A stretch of 29,838 bases of DNA from a virus, in the IMG/VR virus record IMGVR_UViG_3300037042_001256, positions 1 to 29,838 of that record; one strand, given 5' to 3'. Every line of letters begins with the position of its first letter. Position 1 is the first letter of the stretch. Below the pieces are notes generated by a model. The model was given only the letters and a program-made list of their open reading frames with translations, was not told the DNA's origin and searched no databases. The translations under genes were made by a program, and so were the position numbers. Shown here one piece after another: positions 11,594-29,838 of the stretch.

Positions 11594-12028
11594 ATGACAA
11601 TAGAGGAGAAATATCGCAGGTTTAGAGGGTTGCAAAAAGACCTTGATATATGTGGTATGGATTCTATGAGAGACACGCAAAAAGAGTTCTTAGACTACAA
11701 TAAAGAGCAAATGTTGAGTGGTGAAGGTAATGATGGACAAAAGATGGGCGAATACGCATTTCCGTGGTACGGAGATATGAAGTTTAAGATGAACCCACAA
11801 GCAGATGGTAATGTTGACTTGTATCTAACTGGTTCTTTTCAAGCAGGAATGTTTATGGATATATCGGCTAAGAACTATGTCATCAAGAGTACTGACGGCA
11901 AGACTGCAAAGTTACTTGGTTGGTATCCTAACGCATTCGGATTGAATAAGGATAACTTGGATGAGTATAGAAATGGTGTATTTTTCGATGCCTTTATGAA
12001 AAGAGTAAGACGGCAAGTAAATGGCTAA
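11594..12028 (+). CDS. Tail-associated protein, possible tail completion factor
   Basis: A 144-residue protein. The frame extends up to an ATG at 11573, but that codon lies in the loop and 3' arm of a strong hairpin; the ATG at 11594 (MTIEEKYRRFRG) is preferred. The phrase VDLYLTGSFQAGMF followed by a basic C-terminus (FFDAFMKRVRRQVNG) resembles small neck or tail-completion proteins of the Mu gpG / HK97 gp10 type, but the match is loose. It lies between the tube and tape-measure genes and overlaps the next gene by eight bases. Function stays tentative. Confidence 0.65.
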   Translation: MTIEEKYRRFRGLQKDLDICGMDSMRDTQKEFLDYNKEQMLSGEGNDGQKMGEYAFPWYGDMKFKMNPQADGNVDLYLTGSFQAGMFMDISAKNYVIKSTDGKTAKLLGWYPNAFGLNKDNLDEYRNGVFFDAFMKRVRRQVNG

Positions 12029-19328: not shown

Positions 19329-19549
19329 TGGCACTACTACCAATAGGAAATAGAAAGCGTTATAGCAATAGGTTACAAGTAACAACCGTTGAAGCTGAGT
19401 ACAACATACTTATGAAAGCTAATGACGGAGATGACATTAGTATAAGTAAGGAAGATTTTATGACGTATGTGAGTAATAACGATATTGATGGAGGCGATGC
19501 GAATAGCAGATATTTAATAACACAAAAAATAGATGGAGGTAACGCATAA
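19328..19549 (+). CDS. Small tail-tip-linked protein
   Basis: A 73-residue protein joined to both neighbours by one-base overlaps. It ends with the phrase IDGGDANSRYLITQKIDGGNA, in which IDGGDA and IDGGNA form a short repeat; similar IDGGNA-type phrases occur in small proteins near fibre genes of Bacteroidota phages. No other motif. A role in joining the tail tip to the fibres is possible but only inferred from position. Confidence 0.6.
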   Translation: MALLPIGNRKRYSNRLQVTTVEAEYNILMKANDGDDISISKEDFMTYVSNNDIDGGDANSRYLITQKIDGGNA

Positions 19550-24904: not shown

Positions 24905-26059
24905 ATGACATCGAAGTGGATTAAGTATGATGAAGTTATTAAGCAGATATATTCAGAGGAGAAAACAGGAGTAGAGATTGCTCAAACTATCTTGAATGTT
25001 AAAGCCAATAGTAAACAAAACAATGATGTCAAAGAGTTGGGCAGATACATCTCAAGACACGGAAGACGCATTGCCGATATTCAAGAAGGAATCTATGAGG
25101 CAGCCAATCGTCTTGGTGTATCAATAATGGATGCAAAAACGATGTGGCTAAAGGATGAAGGCGCATCAATACAAGTCAAGAATCCGAACTATGTGCCACA
25201 AGAAGTTCAACGAGTTGAGATACTTCGTTCTGAATTGATTGCTGATTTGCAGTTATACCGACCAACATTTACCAAGATAAAACGTGAGATTTGTAAGGAT
25301 GCTCACTTGTTAGTTATTGACCCTGCCGACATACATATCGGCAAGTTATGTTCAGCATTTGAAACAGGAGAAGATTATAATTCTCAGATAGCGGTTAAAC
25401 GAGTTTTAGAGGGGGTTAACGGCATCTTGAGTAAGGTGTCTGCGTATAACATTGACAAGATACTTTTCATCGGTGGTAACGATATATTGCACGTTGATAA
25501 TGCGAAGTCTTCAACTACGTCACTTACGCAACAAGATACCGATGGGATGTGGTACGACAATTTTATGATAGCGAAGAAATTGTACACCGATGTCTTGGAG
25601 TTATTGTTATCGGTTGCGGATGTTCACTTTACGTTTAACCCATCGAATCACGATTATACTAATGGGTTTTTCTTAGCGCAGATTATTGAGACTTACTTCA
25701 AGAATTGTTCTAACATAACTTTTGATTGTTCAATAGCGCATCGCAAGGCATATCAATACCATAATAACTTGATAGGTACAACGCACGGAGATGGTGCTAA
25801 ACAACAAGACCTTCCATTGCTTATGGCACTTGAGTATAGCAAAGAATGGGCAGATACCAAACATCGGTATATTTATACTCATCACATCCATCATAAGACA
25901 TCCAAAGATTATGCAGGGGTAACAGTTGAATCATTGCGTTCATCAAGTGGCACGGATAGTTGGCATCATCGTAATGGTTACTTGAGTATCAAAGCAGTTG
26001 AAGGATTCCTTCATCATAAACAACACGGACAAGTAGCACGAATCAACCACTTATTTTAA
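24905..26059 (+). CDS. Phage metallophosphoesterase, putative nuclease
   Basis: A 384-residue protein with the calcineurin-type two-metal motifs. DxH is seen in DPADIHIGK (D142, H144); the second motif is GGNDILH (G190-D193). NHD in NPSNHDY (N248-D250) is a variant of GNHD. THGDG at 293-297 and HHxHH at 326-330 supply later metal ligands. The N-terminal 80 residues are helical and contain a possible helix-turn-helix (KTGVEIAQTILNVKANSK...RYISRHGRRI), suggesting DNA binding. Phage members of this family are thought to act in DNA metabolism, by analogy with SbcD/Mre11-like enzymes; no SbcC-like partner is visible. It begins after the late-operon hairpin. Confidence 0.8.
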   Translation: MTSKWIKYDEVIKQIYSEEKTGVEIAQTILNVKANSKQNNDVKELGRYISRHGRRIADIQEGIYEAANRLGVSIMDAKTMWLKDEGASIQVKNPNYVPQEVQRVEILRSELIADLQLYRPTFTKIKREICKDAHLLVIDPADIHIGKLCSAFETGEDYNSQIAVKRVLEGVNGILSKVSAYNIDKILFIGGNDILHVDNAKSSTTSLTQQDTDGMWYDNFMIAKKLYTDVLELLLSVADVHFTFNPSNHDYTNGFFLAQIIETYFKNCSNITFDCSIAHRKAYQYHNNLIGTTHGDGAKQQDLPLLMALEYSKEWADTKHRYIYTHHIHHKTSKDYAGVTVESLRSSSGTDSWHHRNGYLSIKAVEGFLHHKQHGQVARINHLF

Positions 26060-26061
26060 CT

Positions 26062-26304
26062 ATGGCAGACGAAGAAAAAGAAAAAGAAGAAGAATTATTT
26101 GCTGATGCTATCGTTGAGTTTACGACCAATAGCGAATATATTACCAATAGTTACTGGGCAATATCAGCCGTTCAAGAACTCGATCCAATGACATCAGAAG
26201 GTAGAGCAATGAAGAACCGCATCCTTACTCGTTGCTTTAAGATTATTGATATGTGCGTGGATGAGATGTATAGCGAACTTTTTGACCCTTCAGCCGATGA
26301 CTAA
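26062..26304 (+). CDS. Small acidic protein
   Basis: An 80-residue, strongly acidic helical protein (begins MADEEKEKEEELFADAIVEF, ends FDPSADD). It starts two bases after the metallophosphoesterase stop and overlaps the next small gene by the eight bases ATGACTAA. DNA-mimic or partner-protein roles are conceivable given the charge, but there is no recognised family. Confidence 0.65.
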   Translation: MADEEKEKEEELFADAIVEFTTNSEYITNSYWAISAVQELDPMTSEGRAMKNRILTRCFKIIDMCVDEMYSELFDPSADD

Positions 26305-26401
26305 CGAAGAAAAAAGAGCAAAGGTAATGAAGAAATTATTGCTAATAGAAGCCGAAGCCGAACGATTACGCAAGTTGATGCGTGAGTTGATAAGTAAGTA
26401 A
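26297..26401 (+). CDS. 34-residue charged helical microprotein
   Basis: ATG at 26297 overlaps the previous stop through ATGACTAA and encodes MTNEEKRAKVMKKLLLIEA followed by a helix to RELISK. The whole chain looks like one amphipathic helix or short coiled coil. The same start junction is used by three other genes further right, which supports translation. Function unknown. Confidence 0.5.
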   Translation: MTNEEKRAKVMKKLLLIEAEAERLRKLMRELISK

Positions 26402-26435
26402 CACGATTGTTTTCATAATGTGTATTTTTAAGAGC

Positions 26436-26455
26436 CACCTCGTTTCTACGAGGTG
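26436..26455 (+). terminator. Hairpin after the microprotein gene
   Basis: CACCTCG (26436-26442) pairs with CGAGGTG (26449-26455), loop TTTCTA. Four Ts follow at 26462-26465 after ACTTGC, so the T tract is weak. The TCTA part of the loop and the CACC/GGTG stem are shared in part with the hairpin at 24861. Probably an intrinsic terminator. Confidence 0.6.
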
Positions 26456-26473
26456 ACTTGCTTTTGGGGTATC

Positions 26474-26505
26474 TCGTAACATATTTATATGAGTATTTGT
26501 TACGA
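26474..26505 (+). promoter_or_regulatory. Operator-like dyad
   Basis: TCGTAACA (26474-26481) and TGTTACGA (26498-26505) form an exact 8-bp inverted repeat with a 16-base spacer. The geometry, with centres 24 bases apart, would suit a dimeric regulator or a pair of monomers. It is not followed by a T tract. Confidence 0.45.
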
Positions 26506-26561
26506 AGTTGGTCTTGAAATGTTATGGTATTTGCGACTGAAAATCCAATTATTTCTGATTA

Positions 26562-26630
26562 TTACTACATAATTTCAAAATAATTTTACCGCTACAAGTA
26601 TCGTAAATACTACATTTTACTACATAATTT
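26562..26630 (+). repeat. TTACTACATAATTT direct repeats and ACTACAT cluster
   Basis: TTACTACATAATTT occurs at 26562-26575 and 26617-26630 (55 bases apart). A third related element, ATACTACATTT, lies at 26607-26617. The core ACTACAT is thus present three times (26564, 26609, 26619), just upstream of the early promoter. The same core is tripled at 2517-2562 upstream of the large terminase. Confidence 0.6.
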
Positions 26631-26650
26631 TAAAAAGTTGAAAAAAAAGA

Positions 26651-26683
26651 TTTGGTAGTATGAAGTATAGAATATTATATTTG
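26651..26683 (+). promoter_or_regulatory. Promoter of the right-hand early block
   Basis: TTTG (26651-26654) and TATATTTG (26676-26683) are separated by 21 bases, within the 17-23 range of the Flavobacterium-type consensus. The ATG at 26660 lies between the two boxes, so it cannot be the start; the ATG at 26702 is 18 bases after the -7 box. Confidence 0.8.
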
Positions 26684-26701
26684 AACTCTAAAACATACAC
26701 A

Positions 26702-26845
26702 ATGGCAAAAAAGACAGGCGCAAAGCCGAAGTACAAGACACCGCTAATGGGCGTATTCGTCCGAGTGGCGAACGAAAAGGATAAGAAAGTTATCCGCAAG
26801 ACAGAAAAAGAATTATTAACTAAACACTTAATTAAGAATGACTAA
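26702..26845 (+). CDS. Small basic protein
   Basis: The start at 26702 gives a 47-residue protein (MAKKTGAKPKYKTPLMGVFV...), strongly Lys-rich. An in-frame ATG at 26660 was rejected because it is inside the promoter. The start carries the ACACAATG context used at 231 and 463. The N-terminal Lys/Gly-rich tail suggests nucleic-acid contact, but no family is recognised. It overlaps the next gene by ATGACTAA. Confidence 0.65.
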   Translation: MAKKTGAKPKYKTPLMGVFVRVANEKDKKVIRKTEKELLTKHLIKND

Positions 26846-27098
26846 CGTAACTATTATCGGAGGGGTAACACCGATAGAAAAAAAGAAGCCTATTGAGTTT
26901 GTGAAAAGTATTGGAATAATAGGTATCCGTAATTCAATATCCAATCCTTATGTGTGGGATAATATCGAATTGATATGTAATAATTATGGGAATGGATTTG
27001 ACCTAATGTTTGCCTACAATAACAAAAGAGAGGATGGCATAGCATATCTTGGACACTTCAATGATGGCATAGTAGAAGGGGAGGTAGCCAATGACTAA
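26838..27098 (+). CDS. Hypothetical early protein
   Basis: An 86-residue protein beginning MTNVTIIGGVTPIEKKK; a central aromatic and Asn-rich region (YVWDNIELICNNYGNGF) precedes a Gly/Asp-rich end. No motif or membrane helix is seen. Both its start and its end lie in the repeated ATGACTAA overlap, so it is coupled to both neighbours. Unrecognised. Confidence 0.65.
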   Translation: MTNVTIIGGVTPIEKKKPIEFVKSIGIIGIRNSISNPYVWDNIELICNNYGNGFDLMFAYNNKREDGIAYLGHFNDGIVEGEVAND

Positions 27099-27318
27099 TC
27101 TACACATCAACCACCCACTTGTTATTGATATGGCAAAAAACAAAGACATATCACGAATCGAAGCTATTGCCGAATTAACAGGAGAAGAGAACGGAGTGCA
27201 ACCACACGAGATGGGAATGTACTTGGAAGAGTTCCATAAGAATATGGCAGATAGTATGACCTACACCGATAGCATTGGACGAGCCTTAATTTACACCTTT
27301 AAACCATTGAACAAATGA
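27091..27318 (+). CDS. Hypothetical early protein
   Basis: A 75-residue protein (MTNLHINHPLVIDMAKNKDI...) of mixed helical texture. A true Shine-Dalgarno GGAGG lies at 27080-27084, six bases before the ATG, which is rare for a Bacteroidota host. It overlaps the previous gene by ATGACTAA and the next by ATGA. No known family. Confidence 0.65.
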   Translation: MTNLHINHPLVIDMAKNKDISRIEAIAELTGEENGVQPHEMGMYLEEFHKNMADSMTYTDSIGRALIYTFKPLNK

Positions 27319-27593
27319 CACCATCAACACATTATAACATCGTATCTGCTTGGATAGATTCTTGCATCACGACCGAACAAATGGATAGCGTTATTGACTT
27401 CATAATCAACCGACTTATTACCGATGAGAAGACCCACGATGACTTGGTATCTTATTGGAAGTTGAAGAACGGACATCGTCAATGGACAGCATCGAAAGTA
27501 GCACTATCTGAAGACTGGGTGCGCTTGGATGACGAACAAGGTTCTAAAGGTGACCTTGAATATCACGAGCCTCAACCGACTGACGTATGTTAG
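27315..27593 (+). CDS. Hypothetical early protein
   Basis: A 92-residue acidic, mainly helical protein with a central Trp-containing segment (DLVSYWKLKNGHRQW) and an acidic end (DDEQGSKGDLEYHEP). An ATGA overlap links it to the previous gene and a seven-base overlap to the membrane microprotein at 27587. Unrecognised. Confidence 0.6.
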   Translation: MTPSTHYNIVSAWIDSCITTEQMDSVIDFIINRLITDEKTHDDLVSYWKLKNGHRQWTASKVALSEDWVRLDDEQGSKGDLEYHEPQPTDVC

Positions 27594-27661
27594 TCATAGC
27601 ACTCATACTTCTATTAGCTTTGCTGATATGGGGTAATCCTGATAATCAAGATATTTACTAA
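27587..27661 (+). CDS. 24-residue single-helix membrane microprotein
   Basis: ATG at 27587 encodes MLVIALILLLALLIWGNPDN followed by QDIY and a stop. Nearly the first 15 residues form one hydrophobic helix; the polar end would face the other side. It overlaps the gene before it by seven bases. The small size makes chance possible, but the composition matches the other membrane microproteins here. Confidence 0.4.
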   Translation: MLVIALILLLALLIWGNPDNQDIY

Positions 27662-27698
27662 TATTTAGTTAACGATGATTTCGTATTAAAAAATTAAT

Positions 27699-27706
27699 TA
27701 CTTTTA
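27699..27706 (+). promoter_or_regulatory. Weak promoter box before the recombination genes
   Basis: TACTTTTA differs from TAnnTTTG at one base and lies 25 bases (box start to ATG) before 27724, nearly the same distance as at 26676-26702. No convincing -33 element was found. The gap of 62 bases after the previous frame makes an internal promoter plausible. Confidence 0.3.
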
Positions 27707-27723
27707 CAAAAATTATATACACA

Positions 27724-27984
27724 ATGAAACTAACAAAAACAATCAAAATTGACACCGCAGAAAATCCGCAATTATTAACAATATCCGTTGATTATGACAA
27801 GAACGGAGATGTTGAATTATTATCTGCCGAACTTGAGCAAAGAGGAACAATGCTTAATGTTGATGTTGTATTTGACATCACTCACCTTATCGAACACTTC
27901 AGACTTGAGGATGCAATATTCCGTGACATTATTTGGAGTGAAATCTATGCCGACACATTATCAGAAGGAGGTAACAATGACTAA
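27724..27984 (+). CDS. Small acidic protein upstream of the annealing gene
   Basis: An 86-residue protein with two beta-strand phrases (KTIKIDTAENPQLLTISVDY) and an acidic helical second half. The ACACAATG start context is again present. It overlaps the Rad52-like gene by ATGACTAA with a strong Shine-Dalgarno sequence located near its own end. Unrecognised; a recombination accessory role is only a guess from place. Confidence 0.65.
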   Translation: MKLTKTIKIDTAENPQLLTISVDYDKNGDVELLSAELEQRGTMLNVDVVFDITHLIEHFRLEDAIFRDIIWSEIYADTLSEGGNND

Positions 27985-28663
27985 CAATACAAACTTAGTC
28001 AAGGCTACTAAGCCGACTATAACCTCTCTATTCAAACAACTTGACGTAGCAATACCACTTGAGCAACTCAATGTGGTACTTGCTACACCGCCACCGAGTG
28101 CTTGGGTTAAGCAACATCCATTCATCAAAGGTTATAACTACCTTCCTATTGATAAGGTCGAATACTTGCTTCGTAGATGCTTTAAAAAGTATTCCATTGA
28201 GGTGCTGAAGACTGGGATGCTTATGAATGCGGTAGAAGTGACGGTTAGGGTTCATTACCTTAACCCTGCCACCAATACTATGGAATTTCACGATGGTGTG
28301 GGTGCGCAAGAACTACAAACGAAAGCAGGTAGCGGATCGCTTCAAATGGATATGTCAAACGTGGGCAAAGGTGCGGTAATGATGGCACTACCAATCGCAA
28401 AGACCATTGCTATCAAAGATGCTTGTGACCACTTTGGTGACTTGTTTGGTGCGAACTTGAATCGCAAGGATGTGATAGCTTTCACAGGTGATACGGAGTT
28501 GTTATCGTATGACAAGATTAACGATGCCAAAGAGAAGGAAAGGGTATCGAAGTTTATCGAATCTTGCTTGAAACTTACAGACTTGACATCAGTTCGTGAT
28601 GTTGCTCAAACACTTAATTTAACTTCACAATACTACACGAAGGAGGCGTTACTCAATGGATAA
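27977..28663 (+). CDS. Rad52-family single-strand annealing protein
   Basis: The frame extends back to 27788, but the ATG at 27977 follows AAGGAGG by five bases and gives 228 residues. The middle and end of the domain read as Rad52/22-type: YLPIDKVEYLLRRCF, NAVEVTVRVHYLNP, then EFHDGVGAQELQTKAGSGS and the hallmark helix AVMMALPIAKTIAIKDACDH with FGDLFGANLNR (about residues 129-160). Such proteins anneal complementary strands during phage recombination and usually act with an exonuclease. Here the exonuclease gene follows after an inserted HNH gene. The C-terminal 60 residues are a separate helical tail. Confidence 0.78.
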   Translation: MTNNTNLVKATKPTITSLFKQLDVAIPLEQLNVVLATPPPSAWVKQHPFIKGYNYLPIDKVEYLLRRCFKKYSIEVLKTGMLMNAVEVTVRVHYLNPATNTMEFHDGVGAQELQTKAGSGSLQMDMSNVGKGAVMMALPIAKTIAIKDACDHFGDLFGANLNRKDVIAFTGDTELLSYDKINDAKEKERVSKFIESCLKLTDLTSVRDVAQTLNLTSQYYTKEALLNG

Positions 28664-29195
28664 GCAAATACTTACAAAACAAGAAATTTGGAAAGACGTA
28701 ATTGGATATAAAGGGTATTATATTGTATCTAATTTAGGGAACATTAAAAGTTTAGATAATTTTAAAGTTGGTTCATATAATTCTACATATTTAAAAAAAG
28801 GTAAGTTATTGAAAAATAATTTAAATAGGCAAAATTATAAATATGTAGTATTATGTAAAGACGGTATAAAAAAACACAGTTTAATACATAGGATTGTATT
28901 GGAATCATTTATTGAAAATACATATAATAAACCATTTGTAAATCATATTGATAGCAATCCATCTAATAATAGATTAGAAAATTTAGAATGGTGTACAGCA
29001 TCTGAAAACCAATTACATTCATTTAAAACAACTAATAGAAAATCAAATTCTGCAAAAATAGTATTAGACTTTGAAACTGGTATTTTTTATGATTCATCTA
29101 AAAAAGCAAGTATTGCTAAATCTATAAATGCAGGATATTTAAGAAGCCAATTAAATGGTAATGATAAAAATAACACATCATTAAAATATATATAA
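28656..29195 (+). CDS. Free-standing HNH homing endonuclease (NUMOD4-HNH)
   Basis: A 179-residue protein. Residues 10-33 (EIWKDVIGYKGYYIVSNLG...) are a NUMOD4 DNA-binding motif; the HNH core uses His78 (LIHRIV), then NHID (His97, Asp99) and NNRLENLEW (Asn105, Asn109). A C-terminal segment (about 131-179, with SSKKASIAKSI) resembles a NUMOD1-type helix-turn-helix. The gene is markedly more AT-rich than both neighbours and uses AAA almost only. A Shine-Dalgarno AAGGAGG ends nine bases before its ATG, inside the annealing gene. It splits an annealing/exonuclease pair, so it is probably a mobile intruder. Confidence 0.88.
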   Translation: MDKQILTKQEIWKDVIGYKGYYIVSNLGNIKSLDNFKVGSYNSTYLKKGKLLKNNLNRQNYKYVVLCKDGIKKHSLIHRIVLESFIENTYNKPFVNHIDSNPSNNRLENLEWCTASENQLHSFKTTNRKSNSAKIVLDFETGIFYDSSKKASIAKSINAGYLRSQLNGNDKNNTSLKYI

Positions 29196-29198
29196 ATT

Positions 29199-29838
29199 AT
29201 GGAAAACAAAATTTTATTCAGAGCATCAAGTTGTGGTGCATTACTAACTGAACCAAAACTAAAAGCAGATAAGGACGCAGGGAACTTGTCAGCAACGGCT
29301 AAGACATTGGTTGAATCAATGTGGCTACAAGGTGAATACGGCTATCGTGAGTTCGTTAACAACGAATATATGGACAAAGGTCTTTCGATGGAGCAAGATT
29401 CGATGCAGTTGGTACAAGATGTGCTTGGCGGTACATTCAGAACAAAGAATCGTGAGAAGTTACAAGATGAGTTCATCATCGGTACACCTGACATCATCCT
29501 CACGGATGCGGTAGAAGACATCAAAACTTCGTGGTCATTGCGTACGTTCTTTGAAGCCGAACCAACTACGATGTATGAAACACAAGCACAATGTTATATG
29601 AAGTTAACTGGAGTGCATAAGTATCGTCTAATCTATGCTCTTGTACCTAACACTAAGGAGATGATTATAGCCGAGTGCGAACGTCTTGCGTGGAAATTTG
29701 GACGTAACTACGAAAACGAAGATTATATTGCACAATGTCAGCAAATCCAAAGGAATAATGACATCATACTTGAACTACCGATTGATAAGCGTATTAAGGT
29801 CTTTAACTTTGAATATGACGCTACGTTAATGGAGAAGT
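29199..29838 (+). CDS. YqaJ/RecB-like exonuclease, cut by the right edge
   Basis: The ATG at 29199 opens a frame still open at 29838, giving 213 visible residues. The PD-(D/E)XK nuclease core is visible: an early acidic residue in GLSMEQDS (Glu65), GTPD (95-98, Asp98), then EDIKTSW with Asp107 and Lys109 as the metal-binding and catalytic pair, and ETQAQ (127-131) as the motif IV Gln. This resembles YqaJ-like viral recombinases and lambda-exonuclease relatives, which degrade one DNA strand to make single-stranded ends for an annealing protein. The annealing gene lies just upstream. The C-terminus is missing, so total length is unknown. Confidence 0.85.
   Translation, partial: MENKILFRASSCGALLTEPKLKADKDAGNLSATAKTLVESMWLQGEYGYREFVNNEYMDKGLSMEQDSMQLVQDVLGGTFRTKNREKLQDEFIIGTPDIILTDAVEDIKTSWSLRTFFEAEPTTMYETQAQCYMKLTGVHKYRLIYALVPNTKEMIIAECERLAWKFGRNYENEDYIAQCQQIQRNNDIILELPIDKRIKVFNFEYDATLMEK

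Follow-up and report, generated by a model that had tools for sequence, protein, structure and literature searches.

Gene pairs in which the stop codon of the upstream gene and the start codon of the downstream gene overlap by eight nucleotides form a recognised class of termination-reinitiation sites, which are less efficient than shorter overlaps; in one genome, 62 gene pairs with such an overlap were found among 2,511 unidirectional pairs (PMC10666635). In Bacteroidetes, Shine-Dalgarno (SD) sequences are reported to be used neither for initiation nor for reinitiation (PMC6728339). Short repeats at gene boundaries have also been described in phages. In the mycobacteriophages Island3 and Brujita, one gene is present or absent between repeats of approximately 50–60 bp at the 3' ends of genes, and one recombinant copy of the repeat is left (PMC3029335); for mosaic phages, conserved boundary sequences shared at the edges of exchanged genes have been put forward (see the discussion in PMC3029335). 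In Cluster K mycobacteriophages, the Start-Associated Sequence (SAS), a 13-bp GGGATAGGAGCCC repeat, lies 3–7 bp upstream of many non-structural gene starts and contains an SD core at some of them (PMC3203893).

The locus described here shares features with each of these systems. As in the known eight-nucleotide class, the overlaps have the geometry ATGNNTAA, the same orientation and a setting in runs of small co-directed genes, whereas here the same two bases NN occur four times, an SD-like sequence precedes only two of the four sites, and coupling is predicted from sequence. As in Island3 and Brujita, one gene is present or absent between short repeats, with a single copy left, although the repeat is 9 bp long and spans a stop/start overlap. 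As in the proposed boundary sequences, bases are shared at the edge of an exchanged gene (at junction 4, below); unlike those sequences, they double as the next gene's start and ribosome-binding site, a role that alone can explain their conservation. The SAS likewise combines a short repeat at gene starts with an SD core at some of them, but at the present locus the start is what is repeated, in only four copies, and no SAS-type GGGATAGGAGCCC repeat is present before any of the four starts.

The four overlaps and their surroundings

The window, i.e. the whole stretch of DNA that was analyzed, is a complete IMG/VR virus record of 29,838 bases. All of its genes were called on the + strand by our own script, whose start calls can be absent or displaced; the start at 27091 and sometimes that at 27977 went uncalled, so that overlap counts are approximate. 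The window encodes a large terminase. The best cultured matches of its capsid protein are Flavobacterium siphophages (31% identity), and an exonuclease-like protein (24905–26059) is 57% identical to its Flavobacterium siphophage counterparts. The host is probably a member of Flavobacteriia and the window presumably a Flavobacteriia siphophage; as a further clue to the host, we looked for a relative of the protein starting at 27977 in the genome contigs searched and found none. Seventeen contigs with 97–98% identity in the 27977 protein served as close relatives, and they mostly retain whichever junction sites they cover.

The initial annotation had described ATGACTAA at four gene junctions starting at 26297, 26838, 27091 and 27977, each giving a C-terminal Asp and an N-terminal MTN, and two of them preceded by GGAGGTA. 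This description was correct in every part: all four copies are on the + strand, each upstream open reading frame (ORF) ends GAC TAA, each downstream ORF starts ATG ACT AA followed by C or T, and GGAGGTA occurs at 27080 and 27967. The features are as follows.

26062–26304, + strand: small ORF of 80 aa ending at junction 1; without a known family, conserved in relatives
26297–26304, + strand: junction 1, ATGACTAA, without an SD-like sequence
26297–26401, + strand: small ORF (34 aa, MTNEEKR...) downstream of junction 1; retained in relatives
26436–26455, + strand: terminator-like hairpin between junction 1 and the gene run of junctions 2 and 3
26702–26845, + strand: small ORF of 47 aa ending at junction 2; 98–100% identity among relatives
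26838–26845, + strand: junction 2, ATGACTAA; the 9-bp repeat AATGACTAA is common to junction 3
26838–27098, + strand: ORF (86 aa) between junctions 2 and 3; exactly missing from contig L012
27080–27086, + strand: GGAGGTA ahead of junction 3; GGAGGT core with the same spacing in relatives
27091–27098, + strand: junction 3, ATGACTAA
27091–27318, + strand: ORF (75 aa, MTNLHINHP...) downstream of junction 3
27315–27318, + strand: ordinary 4-nt ATGA overlap of 27091–27318 with 27315–27593
27724–27984, + strand: ORF (86 aa) upstream of junction 4; 14 of 18 close records have an unrelated 114–115-aa ORF here instead
27967–27973, + strand: GGAGGTA ahead of junction 4, within AGAAGGAGGTAACA, which is common to both alternative upstream genes
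27977–27984, + strand: junction 4, ATGACTAA in the window and ATGAGTAA in several relatives
27977–28663, + strand: 228-aa protein, phrog_15333 (function unknown)
28656–28663, + strand: further 8-nt overlap with other bases, ATGGATAA, in the same gene run
12021–12028, + strand: further 8-nt overlap with other bases, ATGGCTAA

At each junction the upstream gene is read as xAT-GAC-TAA and the downstream gene as ATG-ACT-AAx. Because only NN is free in an eight-nucleotide ATGNNTAA overlap, the Asp end and the MTN start amount to one coincidence. As in the known class, the downstream ATG begins five bases before the upstream stop in a different frame; the gene pairs are retained in close relatives. 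Six overlaps of this length are clear in the window, namely the four ATGACTAA sites, ATGGCTAA at 12021 and ATGGATAA at 28656; ATGCGTAA at 1722 is a doubtful candidate, and a fifth copy of ATGACTAA, on the – strand at 27590, is incidental. Our main reading, to which we assign a probability of about 0.78, is that the four sites are ordinary eight-nucleotide ATGNNTAA stop/start overlaps in a small-gene region, with no dedicated joining module.

Frequency of the repeated overlap and borrowed stops

An over-abundance of ATGACTAA was considered as a signal and set aside, as its count on both strands of the window is only slightly above chance (5 observed against 1.98 expected, with at least 5 copies in 4 of 100 shuffles). 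By itself, GGAGGTA does not exceed chance: the window has five copies, with 2.39 expected. As a yardstick, viral contigs were scanned for GGAGGTNNCAATGNNTAA and the first 80 loci were used, among which 35 non-redundant stop/start overlaps were found, with NN being AG in nine, AC in six, GC in five, TT in four and other pairs in the remainder. In this broad viral sample, AC made up 6/35 of the SD-preceded overlaps and 6/26 of the SD-preceded starts that lack an overlap and was thus no more frequent at overlaps, which indicates that ACT is favoured as the second codon downstream of a ribosome-binding site of this kind in either case. With the NN frequencies of the 35 sampled overlaps, the probability that at least four of six overlaps have AC is approximately 0.0095, and the probability that at least four share any one NN is approximately 0.059. 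Among the eight-nucleotide overlaps of wider relatives outside the clade of the window, ATGACTAA occurred at none of 29 non-redundant sites.

The rarity of AC in the nearer relatives, together with these modest probabilities, marks the recurrence as a mild, lineage-level oddity, and the fourfold ACT is best read as lineage chance or local preference rather than as a dedicated signal. Against the ordinary reading, the same two bases at four of six overlaps, all inside 1.7 kb, are somewhat unlikely, and given the rarity of AC in the nearer relatives a local cause, i.e. repeated exchange that spread one joint, is conceivable. The proposal of a reusable ATGACTAA gene-joining module is nevertheless not supported by the counts of 0/29 in wider relatives and 6/35 against 6/26 in the broad sample. 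A module conserved across relatives was likewise rejected: ATGACTAA is missing from the eight-nucleotide overlaps of the 71% and wider relatives, and no conserved joining module was seen beyond the clade of the window. Junction 4 varies even within the clade, with ATGACTAA in some records and ATGAGTAA in others. In the 71% relatives, the 27977 homologue lies behind its own leader without an overlap upstream, and it overlaps the next gene by 11 nt, compared with 8 nt in the window.

How identical gene ends could arise at an ordinary overlap is illustrated by cultured phages. In the Flavobacterium phages hattifnatt, lillamy and snork, a gene starting ATGACTAAATTTG is preceded by a 37-base gap, while in snusmum and mymlan the same gene is overlapped by eight bases by a different upstream gene, whose frame continues across the same ~40 bases to the TAA within ATGACTAA. 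As seen in these phages, any gene arriving upstream of such a start is provided with a stop. An ATG ACT AA[N] start carries a frameshifted TAA at its bases 6–8, and an upstream gene that came to reach it by shortening, replacement or drift would terminate there, borrowing both its stop and its last residue from the next gene. Because the stop and last residue would be borrowed, gene ends and gene starts look identical, and no special signal is needed to account for them. A ribosome stopped at this TAA would sit five bases past the AUG and might restart there, perhaps aided by GGAGGT at two of the junctions; ACT would be simply one of several favoured second codons.

A second group of viruses, in which GGAGGTAACAATGACTAA lies behind seemingly unrelated proteins ending ...YYNETFGGNND, was considered as a true reusable module and downgraded, because most of the tailed proteins form one diverged family: single-linkage clustering of 55 proteins with such tails, by the sequence that precedes the tail, placed 43 in one cluster. 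Small proteins ending YYNETFGGNN[D/E] or WMRDKIQGGNN[D/E] are found in L155, L159, L175, L213, L250, L291 and other contigs; these tails encode GGAGGTAAC and overlap various next genes.

Possible gene loss and exchange at the junctions

It had further been suggested that the overlaps may give homology for gene exchange, to be checked by whether gene content changes exactly at the junctions. One exact case was found. In L012, the end of the 26702–26845 gene is joined straight to the start of the 27091 gene via a single ATGACTAA, and the 86-aa gene at 26838–27098 is absent to the base, with the join, at L012 position 4447, inside AATGACTAA. Among six possible parents, no direct repeat flanking the gene is longer than this one in five, where it is the longest or joint longest; in the sixth, L039, a 10-bp repeat elsewhere exceeds it. 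As the 86-aa gene was called in 15 clade records, including the window, and is missing only from L012, loss is a simpler reading than non-gain, on grounds of parsimony in one contig. Genomes with and without the gene and a single repeat copy at the join form the pattern of short-repeat excision, in this one contig. Under the ordinary-overlap reading, the shared nine bases would act as short direct repeats at gene edges merely as a side effect, and annealing or slippage between two copies could cleanly remove one gene. L012 would then clearly exemplify the apparent loss of a gene flanked by two such overlaps, suggesting a simple route by which a small-gene array can change while the neighbours stay in register.

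Junction 4 shows a shared right edge. The upstream protein is the 86-aa protein in the window, L005, L015 and L039, and the 114–115-aa protein in the other 14 close records; apart from the final EGGNND, the two have no convincing similarity. Both genes begin after the same leader, both end AGAAGGAGGTAACAATGA[C/G]TAA (GGAGGC in a few), which serves the next gene as ribosome-binding site and start, and the 14 bases immediately preceding the junction 4 start are the same in the two.

These two cases are evidence for an alternative that we regard as unlikely, namely that the repeated ATGACTAA with its SD stretch is a boundary sequence, by which phage recombination swaps or drops single genes while leaving adjacent genes intact and has spread one joint to four places. 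The exact absence in L012 and the 14 identical bases before two unrelated genes are consistent with it. So is strong allele mixing, as all four combinations with the type of the upstream gene occur at 82 of the 93 sites that are informative within the 27977 gene; the clade recombines freely. Candidate recombination functions also adjoin, as the gene following the 27977 gene in relatives matches phage exonuclease/RecE-like families (phrog_5715, E = 1.4e-39; phrog_434, E = 2.6e-8). However, the excision was seen once, a scan of viral contigs for the join between junctions 2 and 3 returned L012 only, the remaining flank combinations at ATGACTAA are all standard, and a repeat of nine bases is short. 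The shared stretch at junction 4 may persist simply as the ribosome-binding site of the next gene. Moreover, most nearby changes of gene content lie elsewhere: the cargo that separates junction 1 from junction 2 is variable, records differ in whether they have a small ORF at 27587, and in L012 (3325–3753) a GNAT acetyltransferase stands in place of both junction-1 genes, not at ATGACTAA. Homology for exchange thus has limited support, from the single apparent loss within AATGACTAA and from the shared right edge at junction 4, and most of the surrounding changes in gene content do not coincide with ATGACTAA.

The 27977 protein, which lies just before the RecE/lambda-exonuclease-type gene in relatives, is by context a candidate single-strand annealing protein. 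Its sole family match is phrog_15333, its AlphaFold model is poor (pLDDT 49.5), and a PDB sequence search with it returned no match. In the window, a NUMOD4/HNH endonuclease gene separates the 27977 gene from the exonuclease gene (28656–29195 and 29199–29837). Its first codons (MDKQIL), at the ATGGATAA overlap, match the start of the relatives' exonuclease gene there, a start that the endonuclease gene has apparently acquired. Separately, positions 26402–26700, from the terminator-like hairpin to the 26702 gene, and the same place in L003, L005, L010, L017 and L039, form a variable small-gene hotspot.

Shine-Dalgarno-like bases and possible coupling

By analogy with the known class, translational coupling at the four overlaps is plausible. 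Nearly all relatives have GGAGGT ahead of junctions 3 and 4, with constant spacing, and no SD-like sequence precedes junctions 1 and 2. Over the clade as a whole, SD-like use is little above that of shuffled bases, which is expected for a phage of Bacteroidota. Within the clade, SD-like sequences were present at a larger share of eight-nucleotide overlaps (4/11) than of the remaining close junctions (3/91; P = 0.002, a soft value as repeated junctions were counted), and a weak excess of the same kind was seen in the wider relatives (4/29 against 23/652, P = 0.02, again with repeated junctions counted). We regard this excess as a lead only; if it holds, it would bear on the translation of internal genes in Bacteroidota phages. 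A phage-encoded bS21 was considered as a cause of SD use, and none was found in nine records.

That AUGACUAA with an upstream GGAGGU is a selected reinitiation signal, i.e. the preferred coupling site of the phage-host system, is very improbable: the constancy of GGAGGT while neighbouring codons vary and the excess at eight-nucleotide overlaps would fit it, but half of the junctions have no SD-like sequence, the clade counts hold the same junction more than once, AGT is tolerated for ACT at junction 4, and SD sequences are reported to be unused in Bacteroidetes (PMC6728339). It is also rather improbable that overlaps with an internal GGAGGT in Flavobacteriia phages serve both as SD-pairing reinitiation sites and as joints at which single genes are removed or swapped with their neighbours undisturbed. 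GGAGG-type sequences ahead of overlapping starts were observed at 27080–27086, 27967–27973, 28642–28646 and 19535–19541.
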